DNA of 64,000 bases from Gordius sp. MW1. Its lineage: Eukaryota; Nematomorpha; Gordioida; Gordea; Gordiidae. The notes under the pieces are model-generated. The model was not told where the DNA came from. It saw only the letters and a list, made by a program, of their open reading frames with translations, and did no database searches. A program made the position numbers and the translations under genes. Positions 9,761 through 64,000 of this stretch are shown piece by piece. How positions within the stretch are numbered: the first letter of the stretch is position 1; every line of letters starts with the position of its first letter. The stretch spans positions 620,001 to 684,000 of the forward strand of contig OZ038531.1 in assembly GCA_964036665.1 (NCBI GenBank). Reading direction: 5' to 3'.

Positions 9761-10240
9761 CCTTATTGTTAAATCAAACATAAGTAAGGTCAAACTTTTT
9801 CATGAGAATGAAGTTAGGACGAAAATAAAGAAGATGCAAAAAATTTATATGGAGCATGGGTCGGAATTTGAGAATAAGTCACAACCATGACTAGCCTCTT
9901 TAACAAGATATTGATAGAAGAGCCAATTCTCTTTCAATGGAGATCAAGCACAATTATACCACGAGGAAAATTAAATTTTAGTTTAATTTTCTTCAATTTC
10001 TATTGTAGAGTGAGCCGGTGAGTTTCTTTAGAAAAGAGATTTTAAAGTAGGTTTAAAAATGAGGCATGGATGAATGAAATGTGCAAAACACTTTGTAAAA
10101 GGTATTGATTAATTTATTTCATTATTATACTCTTCTCTAGTGGTATAATACTCGCAATTTCTGAAAACAAAGAATTAAATGTAAGTTTAAATAACCATGT
10201 TAAATGCTTAGAAAAAGAATATTATTAATTACGAATACAG
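9761..10240. other. No gene seen
   Basis: AT-rich sequence that may continue the decayed LINE to its left. No conserved motif could be read. Confidence 0.4.
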
Positions 10241-10249
10241 GAAATTTTT

Positions 10250-10470
10250 AAGCCAGCTTCGCCATCCGTTATAAAGCAACAACCTAGACAAATTGTCGAA
10301 AGAAATTCATAAAACAGCAAATAAAAATAGCTCTTAACCAGAAATTTGGCCTCTGGCCGGGGTCACATAAAGTCGAAGTAAGCAACGGTCATTTTTAATT
10401 TGCTGGGAATCATTTAGCTAGTTTCGCAATTATCCGATATACAGCAACAACCTAGACAAGCCCAAAGAAA
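10250..10470. repeat. Two-copy tandem duplication, period about 190 bp
   Basis: The block GCCAGCTTCGCCATCC.. with GCAACAACCTAGACAA (about 10253-10310) recurs in diverged form at about 10415-10470, including GCAACAACCTAGACAAG. No coding is seen. Confidence 0.55.
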
Positions 10471-10734
10471 TTTATGTATAAAGCTAATCAGTCGGGCACA
10501 AAAATGATAATGAAATATGTTACGAGGTCGAAAAAATTTGCCAACTGGCAATGATTTGCTAGATAGACTTTATGTGAAAAGTAAAAGACTTTAACAGATG
10601 CATTAGTCACAGCCATTAAGAACCCATAAGTTTCCACAGCAACCGTTAAATAATTACAAGCTGGAGAGGACAGGACAGAATTGACGAGCGTACAAAAACT
10701 AGCCCATAAATTGCATAGCAATTAATAATAAAAC

Positions 10735-11530
10735 ATAATAAAAATGATGCATAACTTTTTAATAGAAATTTGTTTTCATATTTTGTAAATATAAAGAGTG
10801 CTTTTTATTTTAATTAATTTTGAGTTACAATTGAAGTTATTATGTCATGAATACATTAGTTAATAACTCCAATTTGCCTATAATCACACCCATATCTGAT
10901 AACCTGTGGGCATTGGGTCGTTGTCGTCGTAGCTAATTTAATTTTCACATCATTTTAAAGAAATGATAAATGTTTTTAATTTTATAAGATTTGTACCTGG
11001 TTTAAATCCATCATGTTTTTCTACCATTAAAATAATTTGCCATTTAAACATGATTAGTTTATTTAATAAATAGCATAAACACCAATTGTTAAAAAAAGGT
11101 CTGATTCTTAATATTAAAGCGCAAAAATATAAAAATTAACGTATTTTATATTTAATGGGCACCTAGAATATATTTGCAGCGATAATGTTCCAATCGTAAT
11201 ATGATTAGGATTACGCATAACGAAATCTATCATTTATATATGCATGTGATAGGGGGTTGATACGTTAGAAAAAATTTAAGCCCTGTTAAACAACGTATTA
11301 TAAGCACCTTAATTAGTTAAAAATATAATTAACTTTTCACATAATTAAATCACTATGTATGATTTAATGTATCAGCGTCTATTTTATAATTTATTGAATG
11401 TGTACTTCTGATTTAATTAAGACCTGAATTATTAAATTAAATTTATATATTATTTAAAAATCATAATTTGCTATTATAATTAAAGCCTTATGGCGAGCGT
11501 TTTATCTTAAAGCGAAGGCTAAAATTTTGT
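10735..11530 (+). repeat. Interspersed repeat R1, second copy
   Basis: Matches the left half of the R1 copy at 1190-1900 in direct orientation. The shared landmark AATCACACCCATATCT occurs near 10875. An isolated composite-repeat end (CCCATAAATTGCATAGCA) sits just before it at about 10706-10725. Confidence 0.7.
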
Positions 11531-11549
11531 CCTTAATTACATTTAAAAA

Positions 11550-11960
11550 GTGGCAAATAAAACAGGTCTACAAAAAAATCAACTGAAAAAAGGCGAACCA
11601 CCAAATCAAAAGGATTGGGATGCATGTTTGGTTTCGCGCTCCGTTGCTTATCTCCTTTCGATCTGCGATACCAAGCAACAATATAACCTTAGATCTTTGG
11701 TGTTTGATAAATCTGGACATGAATGGCTAGAGGCTTTTCCTAGCAAGTTCTCCAATATGATGTTAGAGGGGTTGCGATCCTACAATTTAGCACTAAGCCT
11801 TGGAATAAAATGCACCAAGGCATATGCCTGTAAATAATGCAACCTGCCAAGGATGAAGAAGCACGCCACCCCTTACACTGAAGACTTAATAAATTCAAAC
11901 ACTTGCCACACTCTAAAATCAATTCTATTATCCTTCCACCCTTAGAAAGGCCCAAATTCC
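11550..11960 (+). pseudogene. Retroelement C-terminal remnant (SG-WL-A-P motif)
   Basis: A 95-codon frame contains SGHEWLEAFPS followed by ALSLGIKCTKAYACK. This resembles the conserved SG.WL.A.P ... LRLG......C region that lies downstream of the RT domain in many uncharacterised invertebrate retroelement polyproteins (family knowledge). The Cys-rich part that should follow is degraded. Element identity is not certain. Confidence 0.45.
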
Positions 11961-12049
11961 ATCCATACTTGAACCTTCAGATCCTTCCCTTGAAGATGCG
12001 ACCTGACGGTTCCTCGCTAGTGCCATGGTAAAATGGACTCCTTTTGTGA

Positions 12050-12320
12050 GATTTTACATGCATAGACCTATTTGCCCCCTCTAATATTAATTATGACCCC
12101 ATGGCCCTCGCTGAAGAACGCATCCAAAATACAAGGCCCTTTTGGACTCTAGTATTTTTATCCCAATAGTTTCCTCCTGTTCAGGATCCTATAAAAAAAT
12201 GGCGTTGGCTTTATTCAAAGGAATAGGCAGGCGATCCCCTCCCTCTAAATATTCCCCCGCATTTTTATTGAAACAATCAATAGCTATCTCAAAGAGGAAG
12301 ATGAAGACATTTTACTCATA
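12050..12320 (-). repeat. Interspersed repeat R2, inverted copy
   Basis: Reverse complement of the repeat at 3775-4030. Shared blocks include TACAAGGCCC and AGGCAGGCGATCCCC. Confidence 0.6.
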
Positions 12321-12339
12321 TAATGTTTTTTTTAAATAG

Positions 12340-12540
12340 CTTCTTCTTCTTTATCAGTTATTTGGTCCCACAGTCGTGGGGTTTGTTTTAATGAGTTTCT
12401 TCCATCTTGACCGGGTGAGTGTCATATCTTGACTAATCTCTTTTGTTTTCATTACTTTATCGACTTGCCCTTTCCACGTGACACGGGGTCGTTCTCCTCC
12501 TCTCTTACCCATTACCTCCATGTCCAGTACTTTTTGATTT
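12340..12540 (-). pseudogene. LINE ORF C-terminal fragment
   Basis: On the minus strand the text VLDMEVMGKRGGERPRVTW can be read, with a following ISQDM..TRSRWKKLI segment. This is the usual basic C-terminal tail of RTE/CR1-like LINE polyproteins (GKRGRGRPK.W). It stops in a short RRR-rich tail. Confidence 0.6.
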
Positions 12541-12544
12541 ATAA

Positions 12545-12720
12545 CTTTTCACATTAATTAAAATTAGTATCCGATTAAATGTATCTGCGTCCATCCTTGA
12601 AATATAATTTATAATGTGTACTTCTGATTTAATTAAGATCTTATTATTTGAATTAATCATAATTTGATATTATAATTAAAGCGTTTCATCTCAAAGCGAA
12701 GGCTATAATTTTTCCCTTGT
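12545..12720 (+). repeat. Interspersed repeat R1, short fragment
   Basis: Matches about 1800-1890 of the first R1 copy and the end of the second, sharing AAATGTATCTGCGTCCATCC. Confidence 0.65.
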
Positions 12721-12944
12721 GGGGGATAACGTTATTTTAATTAAATACAAACAGGGCAAACTAAGACTTGTAAAATTATGGTAGCCAAATAACATAACCA
12801 TGGGCGTAGAACTTACTTTGATTAATATAGACCCTTATTAGCAAAGTTTACGAAAATTTAAATTATTTTATTGAATTTTAATATGAGATCACTTGTTGTG
12901 TTTGTATAATCACTAATTCATTTCCTACCACCAAATTTAATTAT

Positions 12945-15900
12945 TTATGGGCATTAGAAATTTTATTTACAAATCATGTAAGCTGTTTTTTAGACAAATA
13001 TTGTTCAATTTTAAAGTTAAATTTTTATGTAAAATCGCGAGTGATCGTATCATAAGCCTTCTCCAAGTCAAAAAATCTTATGAAGAATTACTCTCTTTTA
13101 TTCGTATAGTGCAAAGATCGGGATTGTGGATTTCTGGCCACATCCGAATTGCTTCGATATTTCCATCTCGATTTTCAGCCTTGTTACTAAGATCATTTCC
13201 ATAAGCTTCAAAAAGTGCAAAGTTAGCTTAATACCTCTGTAATTGCCACAAACCCGAGGGTTTCCTTAGCCCTTAAATAAGTTAAAAATCGTGCTTGCTC
13301 TGCATTGATTAGGAATTCGCTCTTCCTTGTTAATGTGGTTCGTCATTGTCATAACTTCTTCTTACGGCATCCAAACAATGCTTCCATAGGTATTCCATCT
13401 GGGTCATACGCTTTTCCATTTTGCATCTTGCTAATTTGTGTCTTAACTTCATCCCTCCTGAAAGAGTTCGACCAAATTTATGCTTAGCTCAATAACGGCA
13501 AAGGAATCTCTGTCATTTGCAAAATTTATAACTTTCTTCAATATCCTTTTCACATTTCCATCCCTTACTTCGGCTTGAATAAGTTTTGACTCTCCTCGTT
13601 TTTGACTATTTTAACCGACATCGCGACTTTTGTTCCATAAGCCTGACGGCCTACTTGTGATCCAGTTTGTTTGCCATCTGTAGACGGCATTCTTCGCTTT
13701 TGCAACAGCCTTCTTCGCGGCTCTCTTTGCCTCCCTCAGGGTTTCTTTCAGAAAAAATGCTCCGGGGGGTATTTTCAACTTCCGGGGGGGGGGGGGGGGT
13801 AAATTTTTTTTAATTGCTAAACCCTTTTATAATATTTACTGATTTTTATTAGTGATATAAGTGATATAAAAATAGATACATACACGCATAATCATTAAAT
13901 AAATACATGTAATATTTTAACGGGCAAGTGTTCTTTTAAGAAAGTATGTTGTAAAGAGAACAGACAGAGCATAAAGCCCCACCTAAGGCTTCATCAAAAA
14001 TTAGCCATTTGTATTTAGATGTCCATGAAATCATAAATTTATATGATGGTTTAAGTTTTAAATTTTGCCCATGTTTTTCACTTTCAGAGACTGAGCTATT
14101 AGTAGAGCTGCCAATACACTCATCTTTATCAATATATATTAATAAAATAAAAACAACTTGCATAATTTTAATTACCAGCATTTTTATCATAAGAAAAAAA
14201 AGAGACAGCGGATTTACAATTTTCATCTTGACCTTAAATATGAAAATATATATAATACTTCTATATTATAACCAAAATCTTTCTTGCCTCTTCCAGAGTT
14301 CATATGAATTTCACTGCTGGAAGCAGAATAATAGTTGCCTTTAACTTATATATTTTAAAATATCTAATGCTTAAAAATAAGTACCATAATTTCCCATAGT
14401 AACGGATAAAACAAGAGTTTTTTTTAATTCAATCCCATCTTTACCTATTACAAACAAACATTTTTATGTCTTATTTTATATAAACACAAATACCCATACA
14501 TAATTAAAATTATTCCAAATTAAATCATATTTACCATCTTTTTTATTAGGCTTTTCCTTTTTACTAAAGTAGTGTAAAAGAGTCTTTTATATTTACCAGA
14601 CATCTGCAACTCATAATAAGCATATTATATCAATAAAAAACAAACAATAGAATCTATTATTAATAATAATTCTTTTTAAGTTTATAAGTAAGATAGTGAT
14701 TTAATAATTCTAAAAGCATTTATTTATGTTTATTTACGTATTGATATTTTTTAATTAAAGATAATTGTAACTTTCAAGATTGTAAATTAGGGTTCACAGA
14801 TGTTAAAAAATGATGTCTATGAATGATTTCCACCTAATTTGTAAAAAAAATTTAATTTCGCCAATTTTATATTTTTTTTATTGACAAATTAAAATAATTT
14901 ATTGAATTTCAATTTTAGCCTATTAATATAATTTATGACTTCATGATGGAACTTGAGTTCATGCTTCCTTCAATCAAAACTCTCCGGGGGGGGGGGGGGG
15001 GTCCCCCCCCCCCCCCGGGCTCCCCCCTGAAAGAAACCCTGGCCTTCTTAAATTTTTATTAATGATTTATGCCACGGTTAATAGGAAATTTTATTTCTTT
15101 AAATAAAATTCCTAACCACTTGATCCAGCCATTATAGGTCCCTATTCTTGCCTCCTTTTGCCTGGCATAAAAACTGAATCGTCGTTTTCTTCATGCCTAC
15201 ATCCCTTTGCAACTTCCTTGCACCCAAGAGCAATGAGAACTTTTGATGGCATTTTTAGGTTTTCGTAGATTCGAAGTTCATAAACCTTTACTCTACGGAA
15301 ATTTTTTTTTAAAGATCCGTAACAAGTGGATGATAATGCCTGGCTTAGCGACTCTTCCCCCGGTATTAATTTGCAATCTTTGATCCCCCATAAGTTTTTT
15401 TGCTGTATTAGCAAATAGTTGATTCGACTAAAATGCTTTCCAATTCTATAAGTCATAATATAATCTACGCGTTATAAATAATACATATTGAACACCATGT
15501 CATTTGCTTGGTATACTTGGGAATATTTTGATCCTTCCTTTACTATAGGCCATGCCCACAGCCTCCATGATTTTGTTCATACCAGAGGGATCTTTTCCTA
15601 TTTGCGCGTTATCCGCTTCTATGATTAGCTTTCCTTCCTGCCCTATTCCTTGTATTTCCTTTTCCAATGACTGAAGAATCTGTCTTTTTCAAATTCCATA
15701 CGCCCACTTTAGGGACCATGCGCGCACATAACGGTCATGAGATTCCCGTGATCTGCATCATCACCCGCATCAACCCTTCGGACAACGATCGGCTTCCATT
15801 ACCTTATTGAACCATTCGCTTAGACGATACCCACCCCGTTTCTACAAATTGGTAACCAACTGTAGAATAGTTTATATCCTTCCCTTAATTCACGGGCTTT

Positions 15901-49195: not shown

Positions 49196-50230
49196 CTGGC
49201 TAATTGTCCCCTTTGAAAAGTTATTTTTTTGGAAAGTTTATAAATGGAATATCGTTTCATAATGGAATGGGATGAGAGCTATTTATCTAAAATTTAAATT
49301 CAAATTTAGAATAAAATTTATAAATTTTGAACATACAAAATAGAAAAAGCAACCAAAAACTTAATAACACTTCCAAAATAATTTATAAATTATAATTATT
49401 ATCAGTAATATTTGTGTGCATATAAAAAATTATATTATTTGAAAATCATTTAGGAGGTGTTGTGGTTGTTCTTACTCTTTCGAAGAAGATACCCGTTATA
49501 AATATTTAGAAAAATAAGTTTTTGTTGAGAGTGGAATTTAAATGATATAATTTAACAATATATTTTTGAGAAATTGGGGACTTTTTTGAAATTTTAGATT
49601 CAATCCTGCCCTCGTATACTTTTGTTATATATTTTTTGCCATACGATATATAGTCTTCAGATTGTTATAATAGTTTAGCCTTATTATTCTCCATTATTAG
49701 AAATTTCAATACTTCTAGCATTGTTTCAATCATTTGTTACTAACGCGATGCATAATATTAATAAATCGCTGAAATAAATTGCGGTTATTGTAATAAGCCC
49801 TTAAAAGACAAATTTATATTTCGAGGGTAGCTTTAATAATTCTGCATGGCCAAGGCATTTAATAAGGGTTGAGCAAGCGCGGGGCAGAAATTCAATTACG
49901 ACCATCTTTCCAATTTTCAGTGAATAAATATATTACAGACTATTTTGTTCTCCTATTCCATTTCTATTGTTCCGTTGGAAAAGGCAACTAGGCAACTGTA
50001 CAGTTAAGTCATTATAAACCCTTTGAGGTTGATATTTTCAAACAGTGACTAGTTTAAAATTTAAGATGTTCGTGAAACTGGACGCCCTATTTAATAGCTT
50101 TTGGGAAGGAGGTACATTATTCTTAGCCATCATATTTGTAAGCGTTAAATTCCGTAGACCACTCTCTCTCTCTCTCTCTTTAGATTCCGTCTGAATTTCA
50201 CCGCTCACAGGTTTAGTTTCCCGTTCTTTC
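49196..50230. other. No gene seen; CT microsatellite
   Basis: AT-rich. A (CT)8-9 run lies at about 50162-50180. Confidence 0.4.
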
Positions 50231-52446: not shown

Positions 52447-52627
52447 AACCTCTTCACCTTACTAATACCTTACTAATACCTTACTAATACCTTACTAATA
52501 CCTTACTAATACACCCACCCACCCATACCCCCTTTAAGGGGCAGGCCCCTTTTAACATTTTTATTGTCGTGAAGAGGTTTACAGCCGTGGCTGTACACCT
52601 CTTCACGACAATAAAAATGTTAAAAAT
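52447..52627. repeat. 11-bp tandem repeats and stacked hairpins upstream of cox1
   Basis: ACCTCTTCAC (52448-52457) is followed by five units of TTACTAATACC (52459-52512), a C-rich stretch, a GGGGC-AG-GCCCC hairpin (52536-52553) and a long hairpin at 52553-52622. The long hairpin has 26-bp arms and an inner ACAGCC-GT-GGCTGT stem. It ends five bases before the cox1 ATG. It could be a control-region fragment or a replication-related structure. Confidence 0.7.
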
Positions 52628-54162
<1,535 letters not shown>

Positions 54163-54181
54163 CAATCCGATTCTGATTGTA

Positions 54182-54862
54182 ATGAACCCATGACATTTGG
54201 TTTTTTTAAATGACATAATATCCTCTTCATCAGAGTACTTACTACTTTTACATGAATTTGCTATAGCTTACATCACTGCTATTACAGTGATAGTCATGTT
54301 TATATTTTTTACTATCATTACACCAAAAAGCTATACCCTAAAATCTGCACATATAAACTTAACAGAGTTTATTTGAACAGTTCTGCCTATGGTGATTTTA
54401 ATAGCCATGGCATTGCCTACAGTAAAAATTTTGTATTCTAACGAAGATGCTCACTGACCTGATCTTACTGTGAAAGTAATAGGGGCTCAGTGGTACTGAA
54501 ACTATGAGTACTCCGATTTTGAAAACTTAAACTTTGACTCGTATATGACACAACAAGAAGATTTAAACAGATATAAAACACGGCTACTTGATACAGACAA
54601 TCATTTAGTGCTACCTTACAAAAGTATAACACATTTAATCATCTCGTCTAATGATGTTATCCACTCATTTGCCCTGCCACAATTTTCTATAAAAATAGAT
54701 GCCATTCCGGGCCGTTTAAATCAAATATTTATTCTCCCTAATAAGCCTATAATCACTTACGGTCAGTGTTCCGAAATTTTCGGGGTCAATCACTCTTTTA
54801 TGCCTATTTGTTTAGAAGCTCTATCAACTAATAATTTTTTAAACTGAGTAACAACAAAATAG
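54182..54862 (+). CDS. cox2: Cytochrome c oxidase subunit II
   Basis: 226 residues, intact, ATG to TAG, 19 bp after cox1 with no tRNA between. Two N-terminal membrane segments are followed by the CuA domain with AQWYWNYEYSDF, NDVIHSFALPQFSMKMDAIP and the copper site CSEIFGVNHSFMPI. It accepts electrons from cytochrome c. The start MNPWHLVF is chosen because it gives an in-frame ATG right after the spacer; another ATG eight bases later is out of frame. Confidence 0.95.
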
Positions 54863-54864
54863 TA

Positions 54865-54929
54865 CAGTTAAAAAGCTTTTATGAAGCATCAACCTCTTAA
54901 GTTGAAGAAGTTACTAGTAACTTTACCTG
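54865..54929 (+). tRNA. trnK: tRNA-Lys (CTT)
   Basis: Anticodon arm TCAAC-CTCTTAA-GTTGA, acceptor CAGTTAA/TTACCTG (one mismatch), D-arm GCTT/AAGC, T-arm AGTTA/TAACT. It sits between cox2 and tRNA-Asp as in the arthropod ground plan. Confidence 0.85.
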
Positions 54930-54933
54930 CCTT

Positions 54934-54983
54934 GGGGGTTATACCACTTTGTCAAGGTGGTAAACCTAGCTATTAGGACCCCC
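54934..54983 (+). tRNA. trnD: tRNA-Asp (GTC), D-arm missing
   Basis: Acceptor GGGGGTT/GACCCCC, anticodon arm CCACT-TTGTCAA-GGTGG, short T-arm CCT/AGG. Only three bases separate the acceptor from the anticodon stem, so there is no D-arm. It is about 50 nt long. Confidence 0.75.
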
Positions 54984-55151
54984 ATCATCCCCCAAACCTT
55001 CCCTATAGTGACGTCAATTATTACATTTCTAATCTTATCGTTAATTTTTTCATCGTCTATTCTGTTCATCAGAGGGCCCTCTGATACTATTAAGCCCTTC
55101 ATGGTAGGAAGAGTGGGTGTTTCAGTTTCTATGTGTCCTATTAAATTTTAG
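54984..55151 (+). CDS. atp8: ATP synthase subunit 8 with atp6-derived C-terminus
   Basis: 55 residues, the normal size. It starts IIPQTFPM (the family signature IPQ..PM) with one membrane segment. From about residue 33 the DNA (55080-55136) is a 57-bp exact copy of atp6 sequence at 55335-55391. The tail therefore reads SDTIKPFMVGSVGVSVSMC, identical to part of ATP6, instead of the basic family tail. ATP8 supports the F0 stator. The start is taken as ATC at 54984, directly after tRNA-Asp. Confidence 0.8.
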   Translation: MIPQTFPIVTSIITFLILSLIFSSSILFIRGPSDTIKPFMVGRVGVSVSMCPIKF

Positions 55152-55154
55152 TTA

Positions 55155-55823
55155 ATGATAATAAGTTTATTTTCTTCTTTTGACCCCTATGGGTGTTTCA
55201 GTTTCTATGTGTATTTTCTCAGCTATTTTGTCATATCTGGTTGGATGTTAATTATATGACAAAATAGCTGAGAAAATACACATAGAAACTGAAACACCCA
55301 CTCTTCCTACCATGAAGGGCTTAATAGTATCAGATCTGATACTATTAAGCCCTTCATGGTAGGAAGAGTGGGTGTTTCAGTTTCTATGTGTATTTTCTCA
55401 GCTATTTTGTCATATAATTATTTGGGCTTAATACCGTACACGTACACTTTAACATCTAGTACAGCTATTATTCTCTCTCTTTCTCTAGCATTATTTACCC
55501 CTTCAGTAGTCTACTTTTTAACTGGGTTAAAATTATATATATTTATTCCATCGGGATCGCCTATTGTTCTAGTTCCTTTTTTATTTATCATTGAGCTTAT
55601 TTCCACTTTGATTCGGCCCATTACTTTGGCTCTCCGACTTTCAGCTAATATTACAAGTGGCCACATTTTAATACATCTTTGCATGGGCTTAATGGCTACC
55701 CACCCTTTCATGGCTTTTGGGCCTGCTATGCTTTTAATAACTTTAGAGACATTGGTTTGCTTTATCCAAGCCTATGTCTTTATATCCCTTTTAAGACTTT
55801 ATGTTAGAGAATCAGCTAGCTAA
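55155..55823 (+). CDS. atp6: ATP synthase subunit 6, hairpin built into its N-terminal third
   Basis: 222 residues, the usual length, ATG to TAA. The start MMMSLFSSFDPY is canonical and so is everything from LSYNYLGLIPYTYTLTSS (residue 86 on), including LSANITSGHILIHL and MTLETLVCFIQAYVF. This is the proton-channel subunit a of F0. Residues 33 to 88 are encoded by a perfect 168-bp palindrome (55251-55418), and residues 12 to 27 by a further direct copy of its right arm read in another frame. The frame is open throughout with TGA as Trp. The N-terminal part does not resemble ATP6 yet keeps its length. Confidence 0.85.
55251..55418. repeat. Perfect 168-bp palindrome in atp6
   Basis: Arms 55251-55334 and 55335-55418 are exact reverse complements with no spacer (centre AGATCT). 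Direct partial copies of the right arm lie at 55080-55136 (in atp8) and 55190-55235 (atp6 5' end). Confidence 0.95.
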
Positions 55824-55833
55824 CTCGCCACTC

Positions 55834-56625
55834 ATGATAACTAACCCTGTGTACATCTTAAATAACTCATGATGGCCTTTAATATCCGCTTTTTCCGGGT
55901 TGTCCTTCATGACCTCTTTTTTATCATTACTGTGAATAAAAAACGTTTATCTTAGAAGTCTTTGTCTAGGTGTTTCAGCTCTTATAACTTTATACACTTT
56001 CTATCTTTGAGGGCAAGACTTACAACGAGAAAGTATTTTAAGAGGTCAAATAACTATAACTATTGAAAATTCTTTAAAGTTTTCCTTTATCTTATTCATT
56101 TCTTCGGAAATTATATTTTTTATGTCCTTTTTTTGGTCTTTTTTTCATTTCTCTTTAAGACCAGATCCTGAAATTGGCACAAATTGACCGCCTTTAGGCA
56201 TTGACCCTATCCCTTTCTTTGAAACGCCTTTATTAAATACAATCATTTTACTTACAAGAGGGATTACTGTGACCTGAGCACATCATTCTTTTTTTAGTAA
56301 TAAGATGAAAAACTCTACTTTAATTTTGACTTTTGTAACAATCTTACTGGGCGATTTTACCTATTTGCAGCTGGAAGAATATACAACGTCTAACTTCTCT
56401 ATAAACGACTCCTGCTATGGTAGCGTGTTTTTTATATCAACAGGATTTCATGGCTTACACATTCTAGTAGGATCCCTGTTTTTAGCGTCCTTAGTGCCCC
56501 GCATAATATCAGGCCTTAATAGCTCTAACGACATTCTTCATTTTGAGCTAGCGGCCTGATACTGACATTTTGTGGATGTAGTGTGGTTATTTTTATACCT
56601 TTGTATATATTGATGAGGAGAATAA
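55834..56625 (+). CDS. cox3: Cytochrome c oxidase subunit III
   Basis: 263 residues, intact, ATG to TAA, starting ten bases after atp6. It shows NSWWPLMSAFSG, SSEIMFFMSFFWSFFH, TNWPPLGIDP, TVTWAHHSF and the C-terminal FHGLHILVGSLFLA and WYWHFVDVVWLFLYL with WWGE at the end, all diagnostic for COX3. Complex IV structural subunit. No inverted repeats were seen. Confidence 0.97.
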
Positions 56626-56628
56626 CAG

Positions 56629-56680
56629 CATCTTAGTATAAATAGAATACAACTAATTTCCAATTAGAAGACCTTAGATG
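56629..56680 (+). tRNA. trnG: tRNA-Gly (TCC), T-arm missing
   Basis: Anticodon arm CTAA-TTTCCAA-TTAG, D-arm GTAT/ATAC, acceptor CATCTTA/TTAGATG with one mismatch. About six bases replace the T-arm. It overlaps the nad3 ATG by three bases and sits in the ancestral place between cox3 and nad3. Confidence 0.75.
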
Positions 56681-57025
56681 TTAATAAATTATATGCTACT
56701 ATTTTTTGTACCTTTAGCTATTGTGTTATTGTTGTACTGCATATACAGAATAATCTTCACCTTGTCGGTCGGTACCCCTAGAAGCCTCAGATCTTCTTTT
56801 GAATGTGGCATTGACACCTTAGGTGTTGCACGAACACCTTTTTCTTTAAAATTCGTATACTTAACCATCATATTTATTATCTTTGACTTAGAAATCACGA
56901 TTATTATCCTTATCTCATTAATAACTAATTATTATGAACTGCTTATCAGTGGAGTAATAGTACTAATCCTTACAGTAGGACTGCTATTTGAGTGAAAGTA
57001 TAAAAACTTAACCTGAATAAACTAA
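56678..57025 (+). CDS. nad3: NADH dehydrogenase subunit 3
   Basis: 115 residues, intact, ATG to TAA. It carries the diagnostic SSFECGID region (with the loop Cys) and VYLTIMFIIFDLEITIII, then a third membrane segment. Core membrane subunit of complex I. It reads past two TGA Trp codons near the end (FEWKYKNLTWMN). Confidence 0.95.
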
Positions 57026-57030
57026 ATATA

Positions 57031-57082
57031 GTATATAAGGGGGCTTTTAAATTACTTTGCACGTAATTTTAGGTGATTATAC
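57031..57082 (+). tRNA. trnA: tRNA-Ala (TGC)
   Basis: Anticodon arm ATTAC-TTTGCAC-GTAAT is clear. The acceptor GTATATA/ATTATAC has five good pairs. The T-arm is reduced or absent. The position after nad3 is ancestral. Confidence 0.7.
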
Positions 57083-57100
57083 ACCAGTCTCCACAAAAAG

Positions 57101-57174
57101 GTTATACTGACGCATACATGCTAGAAACCCAGATTTCGACTCTTAAACTGAAGGTTGCCTTCTCTACTAAACCC
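57101..57174 (+). tRNA. trnR: Possible tRNA-Arg (TCG)
   Basis: A TTTCGAC loop with a short AGA/TCT stem, a D-arm-like GCAT/ATGC and a T-arm-like GAAGG/CCTTC. The acceptor pairs poorly. It is supported mainly by its position between tRNA-Ala and tRNA-Asn, the ancestral order. Confidence 0.4.
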
Positions 57175-57175
57175 C

Positions 57176-57240
57176 TTTTAGGTAATTTAATTAGAATATT
57201 TAACTGTTATTTAAAATGTGGCACTGCTATGCCCCTAAAA
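57176..57240 (+). tRNA. trnN: tRNA-Asn (GTT)
   Basis: Perfect acceptor TTTTAGG/CCTAAAA, anticodon arm TTTAA-CTGTTAT-TTAAA, T-arm GGC/GCC. Confidence 0.88.
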
Positions 57241-57258
57241 GACTCAACACGATAGGTT

Positions 57259-57311
57259 AGAGTAAGATTTAAACTGCTAATATAATGCTATGGAAGAAAC
57301 CATTTTACTCT
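57259..57311 (+). tRNA. trnS1: tRNA-Ser (GCT), D-arm missing
   Basis: Perfect acceptor AGAGTAA/TTACTCT, loop CTGCTAA with anticodon GCT, T-arm TGG/CCA. A missing D-arm is usual for this tRNA. It follows tRNA-Asn as in the ancestral order. Confidence 0.82.
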
Positions 57312-57314
57312 CTG

Positions 57315-57611
57315 GTGAGTAGTAGTATAACTTTTTGAATTGTAAGCTTGCTAGTGCTGTCTTCTACTAGCAAGCTTACAATTCAAAAAAATAAACCTTT
57401 AATAACTCTCATCGCTATTGAAATATTGTCTGTGTCCTTAATTTTAATTACTATAAAAACAGTTTCATACAGACATAATAGTATCATGTCCCCAATCTTT
57501 ATTATAGTTATTATTGTAATTGAAGCAACACTGGGGTTAACAGTACTTATTAACACAGCCCGTCAAACATCAGCTAGAAACTCATCAAATATACATCTTT
57601 CATCCCTATAA
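57315..57611 (+). CDS. nad4L: NADH dehydrogenase subunit 4L
   Basis: 98 residues, the usual size, GTG start three bases after tRNA-Ser and TAA stop. Three hydrophobic segments with the family signature PLMTLIAIEMLSVSLILI (Glu in membrane segment 2) and VIEATLGLTVLI. Codons 6 to 25 are built from an inverted repeat (57332-57355 and 57366-57389) without loss of frame. Plus strand, whereas the ancestral arthropod copy is on the other strand. Confidence 0.92.
57332..57389. repeat. Inverted repeat in nad4L, 24-bp arms
   Basis: Arms 57332-57355 and 57366-57389 are exact complements around a 10-base loop. They encode WIVSLLV.. and ..TSKLTIQK on the two sides. Confidence 0.95.
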
Positions 57612-57625
57612 TTTGAAAAAAAATT

Positions 57626-58920
57626 ATGACAGTAGTTCTCAACATATCTTTAGTTGCATTATCTGCAGCTATCCCTGTTCTGCTATTATGCTGTTTTGGA
57701 TCACTGAGCTCTCAAGATATTTTTACAGTAAATATAACCATTAGTATAGATACTTTATCTGTAATATTAACTATACTAATTGTATGGGTGTCTCTCATAT
57801 CGGTAATCTACCTCGCCGATAATTATAGAGAAGCATTTAAACTTCCTATACTTACGTTAAATGCTTCTCTGACAATACTTATACTAAGAAGATTTCTTCT
57901 GTCCGATTTATTGCTATTTTTTATTTCGTATGAAATCTCTCTGATCCCTATTCTATTTATAGTCTGAGGCTGAGGGGGGAATTTCAAAAAATCAAAAGCA
58001 GGGGCATTCTTATTACTCTACACTAGAGTAATAAGAATGCCCCTGCTTTTGGGCATTCTTATTACTCAAAAACATTTAAAATGTTTTACATGAAGAACTG
58101 CGAATACTCTTTCACATTTTGTTTCCTATTCAAACCTTATCATTATACTTATAACCTTAGCTTTTTTTGTAAAAACGCCTATGTACGGGTTACACATATG
58201 ACTACCTAAAGCACACGTAGCAGCATCTACAATAGGGTCTATAATTCTCGCCGGTTCTTTATTAAAAATAGGGGTGTATGGAATCTTGCGTGCCCCTTTT
58301 ATTCACTCACATCTCCTAGCGAGCAGATCATTTTTTGTAGTAGCTATAATGGTCTCTGTAGGGGGTATATGTATTTCATCATTACTCATGCTTATGATGC
58401 ATGACGGAAAAATCGCTATTGCCCTATCAAGTGTGTCTCACATGAACATACTTCTTTCTAGATTAATAGTTTTTTCACTTGAGTCATTTAATACCTCTTA
58501 CTTAATTAGTCTATCTCACGGTTTTATTAGTCCGGCCATGTTTTTAATTTTTAGACTATATTACAAAAGAATAAATCACGTAATATAATAATCTCTCGTG
58601 CTACTGCGTCTTTAAGATGCCTCTCATTAGGGCTAGTTTCATTTTTTATTTTTATAGCAAACGCAGGTTGTCCCCCATCTTACAATTTTTGAGGGGAATT
58701 TACTATTTTTTTTAATCTAATTAGTTTTAACCCTGTCTCCATAACTCTACCTTTATTTATTACTAGAATGTGTGTTTTAAGATTCTCATCTTTCATGTTC
58801 TCCCGTATGACTAACGGAAATCCTGAATTTTTAAAAAAATGAACCATCAAGCCTTCAAATTTATATGTATTACTTTTTCTTGCTATCCCTTCTGTCTTAG
58901 CCTGAAAATATCCTTTGTAA
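57626..58920 (+). CDS. nad4: NADH dehydrogenase subunit 4, one frameshift
   Basis: About 431 codons. It shows LLLFFISYEISLIPILFMVW, KTPMYGLHMWLPKAHVAA, SMILAGSLLKMGVYGILR, HDGKIAIALSSVSHMN and, after the break, NAGCPPSYNFWGEFTIFF, all diagnostic for this proton-pumping complex I subunit. The segment KAGAFLLLYTSVMSMPLLLG is encoded by a perfect hairpin (57994-58050), yet keeps family-like residues on both arms. A net +2 shift in the AT-rich 58581-58592 separates the two halves; a repeated AT dinucleotide would explain it. Confidence 0.93.
57994..58050. repeat. Hairpin in nad4, 27-bp arms
   Basis: Arms 57994-58020 and 58024-58050 are exact complements with a 3-base loop. A third, direct piece of the left arm (GGGCATTCTTATTACTC) follows at 58051-58067. 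Confidence 0.95.
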
Positions 58921-58952
58921 GACACATAAAAATAAATTCATGTGTCCTCAAA

Positions 58953-59010
58953 GTGAGTATATAATCATAAAATGTGAAATTATGTTAGAACATGAACATG
59001 TTCTGCTCAC
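58953..59010 (+). tRNA. trnH: tRNA-His (GTG)
   Basis: Acceptor GTGAGTA/TGCTCAC, anticodon loop with GTG between ATAA/TTAT, T-arm GAACA/TGTTC. The D-arm is not evident. It lies between nad4 and nad5 as in the ancestral block, here on the plus strand. Confidence 0.72.
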
Positions 59011-59011
59011 A

Positions 59012-60499
59012 ATACCGATTAATATCAACAACAAGAACTTTACATTACTAATATGGGGTGCTCTGCTGCCTGTTCTCGCATTAACACTTCTCAAGATAGA
59101 AAGAATGATTATAAGAGTTATAATTAGCCCTAAAAGAAGATACGACATAGAGATATATTTTTATATTGACCCTTTTACAGCCTCTTTTTTAATCACGTTA
59201 ATATTAGTTTCTGTGACAATTTTAATTTATTCTGAATACTATATAGAAAATAATATCTACCAAGGATTTTATAAGTCCATGTTAAACATATTTATCGTTT
59301 CGATAGTGTTAATAGCTATATCCCCCCATCTCATTACCCTGATCCTAGGGTGAGATGGTTTAGGTTTAACATCGTATCTGTTAATTATATATTATCAAAA
59401 TAAAGACTCTATGCTAAAAGCAAATCTGACTATTATTTTAAATCGGGCTGGAGACATTCTTCTTATTGTAGCTGCTTGTTTACTTATAAGTAAACAAGCA
59501 GCTACAATAAGAAGAATAGCTGCTTGTTTACTTATAAGTCCCTATATTAAAATAGGAATTGTCACAGGGGTAGGAGCAGCCATAGTGAAGGCAGCCCAAC
59601 TTCCCTGAAGAGGTTGACTGCTGGCAGCTATGGCTGCTCCTACCCCTGTTTCTTCACTTGTTCACTCAAGCACTCTAGTGTGCGCAGGGGTAATCCTCAC
59701 AGCACGAGTGCTTGAGTGAACAAGTGAAGAAACAGGGGTAGGAGCAGCCATAGCTGCCAGCAGTCTTGGTCTGTTTCTCAGATCTGTAGCTGCTTGAAAA
59801 GAGAAAGACATTAAAAAAATTATTGCTTTAAGAACTATAAATCAAATATCTTTACTTTTATGTATAATTTTTTTGAAAATATATTACGCGTGCCTAGCTC
59901 ACATACTTACACATGCCATTTTTAAGAGTAGACTCTTTATAAATGCAGGGGCTTTATTTCATAGCAATAATAGCAACCAAGATATTCGTGACAATCCTTG
60001 CGTCATAAAAATTTTTAATCAATCTTCTTTTTTATCTTTATGGGCTCTAAGAGCCCTTCCTGCTTCGACAGGGTTTTTCTCAAAAGAAAACTTTCTGCTG
60101 GCAGCTATGGCTGCTCCTACCCCTGTTTCTTCACTTTCATTTTTTGTAATATCATTAGGTATGGTTATAACACTAGGCTACACTTGACGACTGTTCTCTA
60201 TGATAAACTTTGAGTCACCGCCATTAAAAAAGGAGATTCATACCAGCCCTAGTATCAAAATTTATGTATCCTTGTCTGTGTCTGGGGTACTTAGCCTCAT
60301 CTCTGTCTCAGTTATTGTTATTACATGTAATAACACAGTAGAGCCCAACCCGCTTATAATAAATTTATTTTTAATGATAAGTCCTTTTTTGTCAGGGCTC
60401 TTATCGAGTGTATTTGTCGAAGCAGGTCTTTCTCGACAAATACACTCGATAAGAGCCCCTTATCGAGTGTATTTGTCGAGAAAGACCTGCTTTACGTAG
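59012..60499 (+). CDS. nad5: NADH dehydrogenase subunit 5 with several copied tracts
   Basis: 495 codons, shorter than the usual 550 to 570. ATA start, TAG stop. Typical parts are FYIDPFTASFLITL, YSEYY, GWDGLGLTSYLLI, NRAGDILLI, KAAQLPWSGWLLAAMAAPTP, VSSLVHSSTLVCAGV, EKDIKKIIALSTMNQMSLLL, LTHAIFKSSLFMNAG and GFFSKENFLL. A 62-bp palindrome (59456-59517), a 59-bp-arm inverted repeat (59617-59764) and a second copy of the AAMAAPTPVSSL tract (60095-60136) are all in frame. The 3' end dissolves into alternating repeats, so the last membrane segments are lost. Complex I proton-pumping subunit. Confidence 0.9.
59456..59517. repeat. Perfect 62-bp palindrome in nad5
   Basis: Exact arms 59456-59486 and 59487-59517 (centre CTTATAAG). 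A third, direct copy of the inner part (22 bp) follows at 59518-59539. It encodes AACLLMSKQAATMSSMAACL in frame. Confidence 0.95.
59617..59764. repeat. Inverted repeat in nad5, 59-bp arms
   Basis: Arms 59617-59675 and 59706-59764 are exact complements around 30 bases. The left arm encodes the conserved LLAAMAAPTPVSSLVHSST; the right arm stays open as VLEWTSEETGVGAAMAASS. A 21-bp inverse piece lies at 59565-59585 and a 42-bp direct piece at 60095-60136. Confidence 0.95.
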
Positions 60500-60576
60500 C
60501 GACAAATACACTCGATAAGAGCCCTAGGGCTAAGACCTAGGGCTCTTATCGAGTGTATTTGTCGCTACGTGACTTG
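60395..60576. repeat. Five alternating copies of a short tract at the nad5 3' end
   Basis: CTTATCGAGTGTATTTGTCG occurs five times in alternating orientation between 60395 and 60570, with nested palindromes such as GCCCTAGGGC. It covers the last 35 codons of nad5 and about 75 bases beyond. The stretch up to the next tRNA (60577-60642) holds nothing I recognise. Confidence 0.9.
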
Positions 60577-60642
60577 TGTATTGATTTTAGCTTATGTAAA
60601 GCATTGTTTTGAAGCAACAAAGAAATATAGATCAAATCGTCT

Positions 60643-60703
60643 AAAGTCTACCTAATAGGTGTATCGGGTTTTGAAGACTCGAAGTTTACTTAACTTAAAA
60701 CTT
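60643..60703 (-). tRNA. trnW: tRNA-Trp (TCA)
   Basis: On the minus strand: D-arm-like AAGTT/AACTT, anticodon loop CTTCAAA (TCA), T-arm ACC/GGT, acceptor AAAGTTT/AGACTTT (imperfect). It directly follows nad2 on the same strand, the ancestral nad2-Trp order. Plus-strand folding would give anticodon TGA, but a good tRNA-Ser (TGA) is at 63375. Confidence 0.72.
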
Positions 60704-61593
60704 TAATTTAGTTTGTATTTCTTTGAGGTGTTTAACAAAAACCAGCTTATGAGAAGACGAGAGTAGTAAAAATATCTAACTACCGAAAATAGTATCACAG
60801 TAAACCCCAAAGTCCATCACTGGTTAACCATAAAAAACTTCACAATATTTACTTTCAAAAAAAATAAAGGGGTAGGAGGAAAACCTGACAAAAGAAAAAT
60901 AGCTAAAAATAGGCCCAAAACTACTTTTTTTCTTAAAGTAAAAAATGACAGCATACGAAACACTATGATTTTATTTTCAGCCGTTACTAACGTATAAATA
61001 CACCATAAGATTAAGCAATAAAGTAGCAAAAAAATAGCGTATATTCTTGGGCTTAATAAACCTCTACAGATAAACCATCTAGAGTAACTTAAAGAAGAGT
61101 AAATCATAAGTATAAAAACTCTAAACGTTTGCAAGGCTGAAAAGATACCAAACATAAAACCTAAAATAATTATGAGCATAACTGGTTTGTCTCAAGATCA
61201 AAAAAAGGAGGCTGGCAATTCTTTGTACAGTGAAATACCAATTCATAAAGGAGCTAGCTTTTGTAGAGTAGATAGCTGTACAAAGAATTGCCAGCCTCCT
61301 TTTTTTGATCTTGAGACAAACCAGTTATGCATTGGTACCACTCCTGCTTATAAAAGAAGGAGTGGTACCAATGCATAACTGGTTTGTCTCAAGATCAAAA
61401 AAAGGAGGCTGGCAATTCTTTGTACAGTGAAATACACAAAGAATTGCCAGCCTCCTTTCGACAAAAGGAGGCTGGTAATAATAAATACCACAAGATTTAA
61501 AGCAAAACCCTGTCACAAAAAGATAAAACTCGTTGCGCTAATACATCACACAATAGTATAGCCCCATAGCAGATACAGAAAACTCAGAACCAA
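60703..61593 (-). CDS. nad2: NADH dehydrogenase subunit 2 with hairpins and one in-frame stop
   Basis: 297 codons from a TTG next to tRNA-Met to TAA. Conserved regions are VYFTVQRIASLLFLILSQ, AGVVPMHNWFVSSSKKGGW, QLSTLQKLAPLWIG, LGFMFGIFSALQTFSVFM and LSGFPPTPLFFLKVNIVKFF. These are the usual quinone-side complex I motifs. Inverted copies of one 70-bp tract occupy 61178-61490 in frame. An in-frame TAA at 61350-61348, in the 12-base loop of the main hairpin, replaces what is normally a Lys before the AGVVPMH motif. The minus strand is opposite to its ancestral orientation relative to cox1. Confidence 0.85.
61178..61490. repeat. Alternating inverted copies inside nad2
   Basis: Exact 70-bp arms 61276-61345 and 61358-61427 with a 12-base loop. 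A further direct copy lies at 61178-61238 and shorter pieces at 61435-61480 (AAAGGAGGCTGG and inverse). At least five alternating segments in all. Confidence 0.93.
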
Positions 61594-61594
61594 T

Positions 61595-61656
61595 AATAAA
61601 GGGTAACAACCATCTACGGGGTATGAACCCGTAAGCTTAATCTAGCTTACTTTATA
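61595..61656 (-). tRNA. trnM: tRNA-Met (CAT)
   Basis: On the minus strand: acceptor ATAAAG/CTTTAT, D-arm AGCT type, anticodon loop TTCATAC between ACGGG/CCCGT, giving the classic GGGTTCATACCCC string. It lies directly upstream of nad2 on the same strand. Confidence 0.9.
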
Positions 61657-61676
61657 CACACAAAACCATAACCACT

Positions 61677-61730
61677 CTAACACAAAAAGTAAAATTTGAA
61701 TTTACTATCGATAGCGTCTATCTGTGTTAG
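61677..61730 (+). tRNA. trnQ: tRNA-Gln (TTG), D-arm missing
   Basis: Perfect acceptor CTAACAC/GTGTTAG, anticodon arm GTAAA-ATTTGAA-TTTAC, T-arm ATAG/CTAT, no D-arm. The minus-strand reading would give CAA (Leu), which is less usual. Confidence 0.72.
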
Positions 61731-61782
61731 TAGTAATAACGGGACTGTAAATCCCTCCTTGTCATTTTTATGACTGCTACTA
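61728..61782 (+). tRNA. trnY: tRNA-Tyr (GTA)
   Basis: Acceptor TAGTAGT/GCTACTA, anticodon arm GGGA-CTGTAAA-TCCC, T-arm GTCAT/ATGAC. It overlaps tRNA-Gln by three bases. The D-arm is reduced. Confidence 0.8.
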
Positions 61783-61792
61783 TATAGGATCT

Positions 61793-61841
61793 GTATTATA
61801 TTTAATAAATTGAATTTGTAATTCAAAAAAGTAGTAAATAC
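61793..61841 (+). tRNA. trnT: tRNA-Thr (TGT)
   Basis: Strong anticodon arm TTGAA-TTTGTAA-TTCAA. The acceptor GTATTAT/TAAATAC is imperfect and the T-arm is missing. It lies next to tRNA-Pro before nad6, the ancestral neighbourhood. Confidence 0.72.
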
Positions 61842-61849
61842 CAGAGCCT

Positions 61850-61911
61850 TTAAAGGAAGATTGCTCTTATCTTAGACACCCAAAGTTTAAATTTTATTAA
61901 ACTACCTTTAA
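61850..61911 (-). tRNA. trnP: tRNA-Pro (TGG)
   Basis: On the minus strand: acceptor TTAAAGG/CCTTTAA, loop TTTGGGT with anticodon TGG (stem with one mismatch), T-arm AAG/CTT. Opposite strand to tRNA-Thr, as in the arthropod ground plan. Confidence 0.65.
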
Positions 61912-62273
61912 ATTATACAGAAGCTAGTAAACTTAGCAGAACTAAGCACACCCCTGCTGGCAAGGGGTGTGCTTTTACTAATAATATTAATCTTATTAAT
62001 AATGTTTTTAGTAAAAGCACACCCCTTGCCAGCAGGGGTGTGCTTAGTTCTGCTAAGTTTACTAGCTTCTGTATTAGTCTTTTTTGATGCGCCTTCCTCC
62101 TTGTTTACTTGGGTAGTTTGAATCACCTACACAGGAGGGGTAATAATTTTATATCTATATGTTAGCGTTTTGGCTCCATCCCCAATATGGAGCTCTGCAC
62201 AGGAGTACCACTCGTAGGGGTATTTTTCATACTCTCATCTACTGTGTCAATTTCTTATGAAAATAATATATAA
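61912..62273 (+). CDS. nad6: NADH dehydrogenase subunit 6, hairpin start and one frameshift
   Basis: About 120 codons, shorter than the usual 150 to 170. Recognisable from LLMMLILLMMFLVKAHPLPA through GVCLVLLSLLASVLVFFDAP and WVVWITYTGGVMILYLYVS, the family's membrane segments. The first 22 codons are the exact reverse complement of codons 33 to 54 (arms 61916-61979 and 62010-62073), so the native start is overwritten or lies near 61966. A net loss of one base between about 62204 and 62214 gives TAG at 62215; the tail VGVFFMLSSTVSISYENNM continues in the next frame to TAA. Confidence 0.85.
61916..62073. repeat. Inverted repeat in nad6, 64-bp arms
   Basis: Arms 61916-61979 and 62010-62073 are exact complements separated by 30 bases. 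The right arm carries the genuine nad6 sequence (KAHPLPAGVCLVLLSLLASV). Confidence 0.95.
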
Positions 62274-62277
62274 AACA

Positions 62278-63375
62278 ATACGAAAAAATAATAACATTAC
62301 ATCAATAATAAACGCGTTTATTATTGATCTTCCTACACCTCCTAACCTAAACTATTGATGAAATATAGGGTCTTTAACAGGTTTATTTCTGGTAATCCAA
62401 ATCGTGTCAGGTCTATTCTTATCTATACACTATACACCAAGCACTACTATAGCATTTACATCTGTCTTATTAATCGTAAATAATGTATGAGAAGGGTTTA
62501 CTTTTCGAAGTTTCCATGCACTAGGTGCATCTTTTATATTTATATTTATCTACTTACATATTTTCCGTAGCCTGTTTTATGGCTCGTACATTCTAAACCC
62601 AAACACTTGGCTTACAGGCTGAGTAATGCTGGCTTTATCTATAGTTACAGCCTTCTTAGGTTACGTTCTCCCTTGAGGGCAAATATCATTCTGAGCAGCT
62701 ACAGTCATCACTAACATGCTTTCAGCTATTCCTTATCTAGGTAAAAGTATCGTTTTGTGAATCTGAGGAGGATTTAGAGTAGGTGAACCTACTCTAAATC
62801 GCTTTTTCTCCTTACATTTTATTTTACCTATCCTTTTAATAGCCCTGTCTTTGGCTCACTTAATTTTATTACACGACAAAGGTAGCAATAACCCTTTAGG
62901 TCTTCCATCTAGAGCAATAAAAACATCTTTTCACGTATTATATACGTGAAAAGATGTTGCAGCTTTTATCTTACCTATCACGGGCTTAATAGTAATTGCT
63001 TTTTTATCCCCAGACTCCTTGTCAGACGTCTCTAATTTCATTGAAGCTAACCCTCTTTCTACTCCTGCGCATATCATACCCGAATGATATTTTTTATTTG
63101 CTTACGGCATTCTTCGTAGAGTACCTATTAAGCTAGGCGGTGTCATTGCTTTATTTATAAGTCTTTTTATCTTACTCATTCTAACTTTGAGAAATAAGAA
63201 AATTGCTACCGTGTATAATAAACCCCGACAGTTCATAGCAACTATTGCTTCTAGATCCTTTTTACTTCTTAGATTTATTGGCTCTCAAGTAGTAGAAGAG
63301 CCCTTTTATACCCTAGGACAAATATTTAGCTTTATTTATTTTTTATCTTTTATTTGTTTGTACATGATAGCCTAA
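62278..63375 (+). CDS. cytb: Cytochrome b
   Basis: 365 residues, uninterrupted from ATA to TAA. It contains [40 protein letters not shown] (haem His residues), [34 protein letters not shown], the Qo-site [14 protein letters not shown], and a typical last membrane segment. Complex III core subunit. Two small perfect inverted repeats sit in conserved places: 62771-62800, where [14 protein letters not shown] replaces the usual GGFSVDNATL, and 62922-62958, encoding FHVLYTWKDV where FHPYYTWKD is usual. Confidence 0.96.
62771..62800. repeat. Inverted repeat in cytb, 14-bp arms
   Basis: GATTTAGAGTAGGT and its complement around GA. Confidence 0.9.
62922..62958. repeat. Inverted repeat in cytb, 17-bp arms
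   Basis: AACATCTTTTCACGTAT and its complement around a 3-base loop. Confidence 0.9.
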
Positions 63376-63429
63376 GATTAAAACTACAATTACCTTGAAA
63401 GTAATTTCTGGCCTTAAGGTCTTGAATCT
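63375..63429 (+). tRNA. trnS2: tRNA-Ser (TGA), D-arm weak
   Basis: Acceptor AGATTAA/TGAATCT with one mismatch, anticodon arm ATTAC-CTTGAAA-GTAAT, T-arm GGCC/GGTC. It directly follows cytb as in the ancestral order. Confidence 0.82.
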
Positions 63430-63479
63430 AATTTAACCAGTTAGTATACTTTATTACGTAGAAGTTTCAGCTCTAAAAC

Positions 63480-64000
63480 ACTCACAAGAGTACCGGTTTA
63501 TTCAATATCTAAAAAGTGTTAATAAACACCACCACTAAATTCTAAATTTAATGCACAATTATGCTATTTTAGATGCTAAACAAACGGTCCTTTCGTACTA
63601 GGTTTTCTTTTATAAAGATAGGAACCGATCTGGCTCTCGCCGATCTGAACTCAAGTCATGGATTATTTTAATTAGTCGAACAGACTATCTTAGTGAAATG
63701 CTACCTCCACCAGACATAATAACTCAACATCGAGGTCGCAAACAACATAAATCATAAGGTCTGTTTTATGCTATAACGCTGTTAGCCCCAGGGTAACTTT
63801 TACTTTCTATCAAACAAATTGGATCATACTAAAATCTACAAGATTTGTACTTATAAGTAGTTTCACGTTTAGCCTAAGTTGCCCCAACTAACTAATATAA
63901 TATTAGAAGCTCCTGGGGTCTTCCCTTCTTTTACTTACTTCAAGTGTTTTCACTTGAAACATAATTTCAATTTTTTCTTTAAGGTACAAATAGATAAAAG
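63480..64000 (-). rRNA. rrnL: Large-subunit mitochondrial rRNA, 3' part
   Basis: On the minus strand it shows the conserved peptidyl-transferase-side strings, for example the complement of GGCTCTCGCCGATCTGAACT (about 63631) and of GTTAGCCCCAGGGTAAC (about 63781). The 3' end near 63450-63490 is estimated. The gene runs past the window end. No nad1 and no clear tRNA-Leu lie between it and tRNA-Ser (TGA). Confidence 0.9.

Follow-up and report, generated by a model that had tools for sequence, protein, structure and literature searches.

Long perfect inverted repeats inside the protein-coding genes of mitochondrial DNA (mtDNA) are known from hairworms (Nematomorpha). In the main text of their paper, Mikhailov et al. 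(2019; PMC6649704) reported coding palindromes with perfect repeats of up to 142 base pairs (bp) per arm, none of them in cox1, and discussed template switching, the question of how the palindromes stay perfect being left open there; Nikolaeva et al. (2023; PMC10380579) also describe such coding palindromes. Neither main text mentions numts, pseudogenes, the nuclear genome, nuclear copies or nuclear mitochondrial sequence. Here, we analysed a 64,000-nucleotide stretch of the Gordius sp. MW1 genome (contig OZ038531.1, positions 620,001 to 684,000; hereafter the window), which holds a recent, near-complete nuclear copy of a hairworm mitochondrial genome (nuclear mitochondrial DNA segment, NUMT), coding palindromes included. 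An earlier sequence-only reading of the window held that so many long palindromes in one mitochondrial genome were not a described pattern, a view that the two papers overturn. Palindromes in coding genes being already known, what seems to be new is what nuclear copies show about their correction and breakage.

Like the hairworm mtDNAs presented in the main texts of these papers, the sequence studied here carries long perfect repeats in atp6 and in nad genes, none in cox1, and the same gene order. In the same line, its arms evolve in concert, as in the hairworms of Mikhailov et al., for which the text reports one substitution pair between two individuals. Unlike the published cases, nuclear copies of differing age are at hand here, which provide many more paired changes and show the unmaintained state.

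A recent nuclear copy of the mitochondrial genome

The window (C5:620001-684000) lies inside the 24.0-Mb contig C5 of an assembly of 211.8 Mb in 12 contigs, and the mtDNA of the same assembly forms a separate contig of 14,798 bp, C12. The copy is colinear with C12 from position 3892 to 14798 and then from 1 to 3743. The alignment crosses from one end of C12 to the other uninterrupted, so that C12 is circular and the window NUMT is almost the entire mtDNA, opened in the control region. Its four long pieces show blastn identities to C12 of 97.7, 93.9, 98.9 and 98.6%, the lowest belonging to the piece with gaps at palindromes, and 211 substitutions separate the two sequences. The sequence-only reading had taken the locus for the mitochondrial genome itself; what lies in the window is a decaying copy in a nuclear contig, and only C12 has the location expected of an expressed mitochondrial genome. 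Read with genetic code 5, the frames follow the order cox1-cox2-atp8-atp6-cox3-nad3-nad4L-nad4-nad5-nad2(-)-nad6-cytb-nad1(-), which, together with the invertebrate code, agrees with the list for Gordioida given in the text of PMC10380579. The order covers the genes named by their reading frames; ARAGORN, run with the bacterial code on the mtDNA (L005), found no transfer RNA. Together with the palindromes, this order makes Nematomorpha the highly probable phylum.

Several genes of the copy are broken. The cox1 gene is split into two frames (52556-53023 and 52966-54159), nad4 has lost 1 bp near 58572, nad2 consists of two frames meeting at the palindrome centre, and nad6 is without a 281-bp hairpin and has a shortened frame; 124 bp are also missing from the nad5 palindrome cluster. 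The earlier statement that the frame stays open on both arms of nearly every repeat is thereby valid for only some genes of this copy.

The lineage under selection was identified by a three-way comparison of C12, the window copy and the NUMT C1a, codon counts being restricted to sites that could be placed in codons. Private sites number 120 in C12, 63 in the window copy and 101 in C1a. The changes private to C12 fall mostly at third codon positions (46 of 57) and are mostly synonymous (48 against 9 non-synonymous), which designates C12 as the selected lineage, whereas those private to the window copy look neutral (13 of 29 at third positions; 12 synonymous, 17 non-synonymous), as expected of a sequence released from protein selection. 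At the 103 C12-private sites for which the NUMT C8a is available, C8a has the state of the other NUMTs at 88 and that of C12 at 11.

Inverted repeats and paired changes between their arms

C12 contains 47 perfect inverted repeats with arms of at least 14 bp and spacers of at most 400 bp, the longest arm reaching 108 bp, while five mononucleotide shuffles of the same sequence yield none. The repeats are therefore real and far beyond chance, and many long ones lie inside protein genes. All nine perfect repeats that had been pointed out in coding genes of the window were recovered by our scan, with arms within 0-3 bp of the lengths first given, and the copied tract proposed in atp8 proved to be a perfect copy of an arm of the atp6 palindrome. 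The reported freedom of cox1, cox2, cox3 and nad3 from arms was likewise borne out, one control-region palindrome stopping just before the cox1 start. Besides, C12 and further nuclear copies carry the same palindromes wherever these have not been lost, so that an artefact confined to the window's contig is not supported.

Eleven NUMT copies, diverging from C12 by 1.3-13.8%, were mapped, and ten of them hold at least one usable repeat. Changes relative to mtDNA were counted in 14 repeats that are perfect in C12 and have at least 60% of their pairs aligned, a choice that favours conserved arms. Complementary double changes between arms were seen 30 times, against 3.4 expected if the arms were independent, and only one double change out of 31 was non-complementary; changes in a single arm amounted to 42, compared to about 220 expected at the rate outside arms. 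Because the copies C4 and C4b, and likewise C8a and C3, are related, the changes counted are not all independent. In the old copy C1b, which diverges by 11.4% outside arms, 226 pairs show six paired and three single changes, so that within this copy the arms have remained almost perfect in spite of its differences from C12. In addition, C12 and the window copy differ in length at or beside palindrome centres, by 18 bp in atp6, 15 bp in the control region, 15 bp in nad2 and 11 bp in nad1.

This pattern is the one predicted if arms were corrected against each other in mtDNA and then left to uncorrected decay in the nucleus, and it supports that view. The arms in mtDNA would be kept identical by hairpin-templated or template-switch copying, with the proteins held by selection, the enzymatic step being one that we infer. 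The proposal of the sequence-only reading, copying of the opposite strand followed by selection for an open frame, fits the complementary double changes, the deficit of single ones and the synonymous bias of C12, and arm-to-arm copying with selection for open frames remains plausible; its error concerned the locus, a nuclear pseudogene copy rather than working mtDNA.

Single-arm micro-NUMTs and palindrome centres

Short nuclear matches to mtDNA (micro-NUMTs) were collected by focused searches around the palindromes and in the palindrome-free genes cox1 and cox3. A total of 120 regions were fetched and re-aligned, the first 40 chosen after arm matches had been noticed and the next 80 by the focused-search lists. 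Ten were dropped, namely L031 (by the search listing a copy of L030), L018 (sharing the flanks of L016), L022 (within L126), L046 (within L128), L056 and L057 (both flanked like L055), L067 and L062 (matching L066 in flanks and structure), and the long NUMTs L127 and L129, leaving 162 segments of 22-372 bp at 110 loci. These loci are fewer than all matches: left uncounted were the L094 look-alikes C1:28051955, C3:21758, C3:25653838 and C8:37124838 (taken for copies solely because their mtDNA coordinates are equal), further members of the C5:21065862 and C5:3435k groups that are copies, part of the medium-sized NUMTs and a number of short matches.

An overlap of at least 25 bp with a tight palindrome (arm of at least 26 bp, spacer of at most 5 bp) was found for 66 segments. 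As many as 41 of these end within 5 bp of the palindrome centre, where 20,000 random placements of segments of the same lengths gave a mean of 8.4 and a maximum of 22, and none crosses the centre by more than 15 bp (random mean 13.0, minimum 3). Centre ends are frequent in nad1 (7/9), in the control-region palindromes CR1 (3/3) and CR2 (1/1), in two nad5 palindromes (10/15 and 1/2) and in nad6 (9/12), and the excess persists with one segment per locus (38/63) and without atp6 (32/47). A decayed second arm hidden in the flanks was considered and rejected: beyond the centre, it rose above 50 shuffles in a single centre-ended insert (L063) and was not found above them in the 40 others. Finally, 18 of the 41 centre-ended inserts have their far end no more than 10 bp from the arm base, compared to a null mean of 5.3 and a maximum of 14. 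To judge from their signed offsets, the centre ends fall a few bases before or beyond the tip. In V(D)J joining, the opening of hairpins gives palindromic overhangs, and the scatter of ends by a few bases around the tip is similar, by way of analogy, to that of the micro-NUMTs. By eye, micro-NUMT density exceeds that of the cox1 and cox3 controls for atp6, with a smaller difference for nad6 and nad5, but since each arm counts twice, nothing was rested on density.

Some further features of the inserts and of their surroundings can be mentioned. Among 105 loci, six inserts at nuclear inverted repeats exceed the 99% level of the null, and two of them, L059 (C3:22515765) and L077 (C4:22873764), lie within 6 bp of the centre, as if nuclear palindromes also broke centrally and captured mtDNA. 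Inserts L029, L112, L096 and L044 are composites of several distant mtDNA fragments set end to end, and L010, L012, L020 and L035 are young inserts with 100% identity to mtDNA. Judging by the similarity of their flanks, L022, L026, L034, L035, L075, L077, L109 and L115 are contained in, or adjoin, copies of a single short nuclear repeat. The mtDNA segment 517-705 (in L005) has at least a dozen dispersed nuclear matches on C1, C3, C4 and C5, with 81-86% identity and roughly common ends, as if it belonged to a nuclear repeat family. The regions C4:356k-381k and C4:1457k-1487k, which are mirrored and hold the same NUMTs, are apparently a large inverted duplication. The features of the window are collected in Table 1.

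Table 1. Positions in the window of the nuclear mitochondrial copy, its inverted repeats and associated features
Feature	Position	Strand	Details
Single-arm micro-NUMT in nuclear sequence (L083)	49450..49494	+	From nad1 palindrome centre (mtDNA 2780) to near arm base (2829); 88% identity
Near-full-length NUMT	52456..64000, extending past the window to C5:686625	+	Aligned with C12 (mtDNA) by blastn
Control-region palindrome, just upstream of cox1	52550..52625	.	Perfect arms 29, spacer 18; mtDNA arms 39 bp
2-bp insertion private to this NUMT, breaking the cox1 frame	53012..53013	+	Compared to C12 and further NUMTs
atp8 tract, direct copy of atp6 palindrome arm	55080..55136	+	57 bp, perfect
atp6 inner hairpin, arms 47, spacer 17	55190..55300	.	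Perfect-repeat scan
atp6 palindrome, arms 86 and 86, spacer 0	55249..55420	.	mtDNA arm 95 (+9 bp per arm at centre)
nad4L inverted repeat, arm 24	57332..57389	.	Perfect-repeat scan
nad4 inverted repeat, arm 28	57993..58051	.	Perfect-repeat scan
nad5 inverted repeat, arm 31, spacer 0	59456..59517	.	Perfect-repeat scan
nad5 inverted repeat, arm 60, spacer 30	59616..59765	.	Two paired substitutions compared to mtDNA
nad5 3' palindrome cluster, remnant	60394..60570	.	98-bp-arm palindrome of mtDNA gone; 124-bp deletion compared to mtDNA 11937-12060
nad2 palindrome (minus-strand gene), arm 70, spacer 12	61276..61427	.	mtDNA arm 81, spacer 5
nad6 first hairpin, arm 67, spacer 26	61915..62074	.	Perfect-repeat scan
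Site lacking the 281-bp nad6 palindrome of mtDNA (mtDNA 13786-14066)	62165..62187	+	Coincides with a direct repeat of 21 bp
cytb inverted repeat, arm 14	62771..62800	.	Perfect-repeat scan
cytb inverted repeat, arm 17	62922..62958	.	Perfect-repeat scan
Mitochondrial large-subunit ribosomal RNA portion of the NUMT	63609..63957	-	Rfam RF02541 match

Proposed tip cutting and capture, and their alternatives

The explanation that we consider probable as a whole combines a NUMT with coding palindromes, arm-to-arm correction in mtDNA, and arms cut at the tip and captured as micro-NUMTs. In mtDNA, the palindromes would extrude as hairpins or cruciforms, the extruded tip would be cut by a nuclease at the tip or within a few bases of it, often together with a second cut close to the base. 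The double-stranded arms released in this way, some 25-140 bp long, would be captured by end joining at nuclear breaks, giving rise to single-arm micro-NUMTs. As regards the nuclease, the text of PMC10802722 reports that EndoG/Nuc1 (endonuclease G) of yeast promotes short NUMTs of about 45-200 bp, with capture at breaks as their route, a size range similar to that found here; unlike the yeast inserts described in that text, those of the hairworm are one-armed and their ends cluster at palindrome centres. Endonuclease G, a mitochondrial nuclease acting on non-B DNA, is also described, in the text of PMC9711528, as cutting structured mtDNA, demonstrated on G-quadruplexes and not on hairworm hairpins. 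Both papers provide leads for candidate nucleases rather than tests. Among the matches listed in the open-licence literature, considered by titles and abstract openings, no report of hairpin-ended or single-arm NUMTs was found.

Several observations weigh against this explanation. In the window copy, 28 overlapping repeats show eight single against seven paired changes, the single ones mostly in small nad2 and control-region hairpins. Centre ends are reached by only 9 of 19 segments in atp6 and 1 of 5 in nad2; looped hairpins are sometimes spanned (L019, L043, L128); and pseudo-centres placed in cox1 have, on average, 11% of their segments ending at the centre, yet single ones reach 3/5 by chance. 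Six of the 41 centre-ended inserts overrun the arm base by 11-224 bp, while another 17 fail to reach it by over 10 bp, so that a residue of the stem alone is insufficient and the cutting of the tip is the common factor. As to decay, the NUMT C1a looks less neutral (33 of 53 private changes at third positions; 34 synonymous, 19 non-synonymous) than the window copy, perhaps because it derives from another mtDNA lineage. Finally, C12 bears 14 private indels of 1-2 bp (positions 441, 2314, 5822, 6361, 7660, 7947, 9608, 9890, 10884, 11705, 11846, 12465, 13169 and 13445 of L005/L006), many of them in single-base runs and some breaking cox2, cox3, nad4 and nad5, which are probably, though unproven, consensus errors.

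The main rival places the processing in the nucleus, where palindromes would have been inserted whole and one arm later removed by chromosomal instability. In its favour, long tight hairpins have gone from long NUMTs. The 281-bp nad6 palindrome is absent, at a 21-bp direct repeat, from all three copies with both flanks (C5, C1a, C8a), the 98-bp-arm nad5 palindrome from four of four (C5, C1a, C8a, C3), and the atp6 palindrome from three of six (C8a, C3, C1b), the direct repeats at these sites measuring 63-75 bp; this palindrome is retained in C5, C1a and C4, and also in the one-flank copies C8b and C4b. The losses in C8a and C3 are probably one event. The NUMTs at C8:416.5-433.3k and C3:80-94.6k have common internal deletions and an insertion of about 5.6-5.7 kb at mtDNA position 11830, and are probably, on these shared features, copies of one insertion. 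Since the text of Mikhailov et al. reports comparable skipping of hairpins in the polymerase chain reaction, an origin of the losses in library amplification has to be excluded; yet C12, from the same assembly, retains its hairpins. Given that both the missing 281 bp and the 21-bp direct repeat at the site are shared by C5, C1a and C8a, an ancestral absence of the nad6 palindrome was also considered, and repeated loss was preferred because old micro-NUMTs, L037 (79% identity) and L033 (87%), already join the arm to upstream nad6, a recent gain being the less probable alternative. Nevertheless, in nad6 and atp6 what was lost is bounded by direct repeats, and the remainder is not precisely a single arm; 40 of the 41 flanks bear no trace of a second arm, and the centre excess is equally strong in young inserts (22/39 at 90% identity or more) and in old ones (19/27 below 90%). 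Nuclear processing thus appears unlikely.

Slightly less probable is that the identity of the arms reflects selection for structure, the hairpins being functional attenuators, instead of correction. Four repeats stand at common positions across four hairworm species according to the text of PMC6649704, in agreement with this view, while the RNA-seq reported in the same text gave no significant stage difference, and the centre-symmetric length changes between mtDNA and window copy, in atp6 and in the control-region palindrome, fit copying better. We give still less credit to an RNA origin of the inserts, in which the stems of mitochondrial transcripts would be reverse transcribed and the copy would stop at the hairpin tip. 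Transcripts do bear the same hairpins, as stated in the text of PMC6649704; that control-region palindromes also yield centre-ended inserts, and that some inserts combine fragments of distant genes, speaks against such an origin without excluding it. Finally, a misjoining of mtDNA reads into chromosome C5, the window then being the working mitochondrial genome, would suit a copy that is nearly full length, close to C12 and intact in several frames broken in C12, but it is the least probable of all, in view of the number of substitutions and of further nuclear copies of 1.3-14% divergence, and was rejected on the neutral private changes of the window copy, opposed to the selected ones of C12, and on its private lesions (frameshifts and hairpin losses).

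With a young near-full NUMT, older NUMTs and about 100 micro-NUMTs, this chromosome-scale assembly makes the maintenance of palindromes testable from sequence. As NUMTs freeze past states of the palindromes, correction in mtDNA, recognised by paired changes, becomes separable from nuclear decay, recognised by mismatched arms. A word of caution is that NUMTs may pass for mitochondrial genes in such assemblies. The accumulation of micro-NUMT ends at the centres of palindromes is indicative of structure-directed mtDNA cutting. Our judgement is evenly balanced on the wider proposal that hairworm palindromes are cut in vivo at the tip, in which case the freed arms would be a recurrent breakdown product of mtDNA that seeds the nuclear genome, NUMT ends would form a genome-wide record of structure-directed cutting, and the cutting of tips could feed the arm-to-arm copying.

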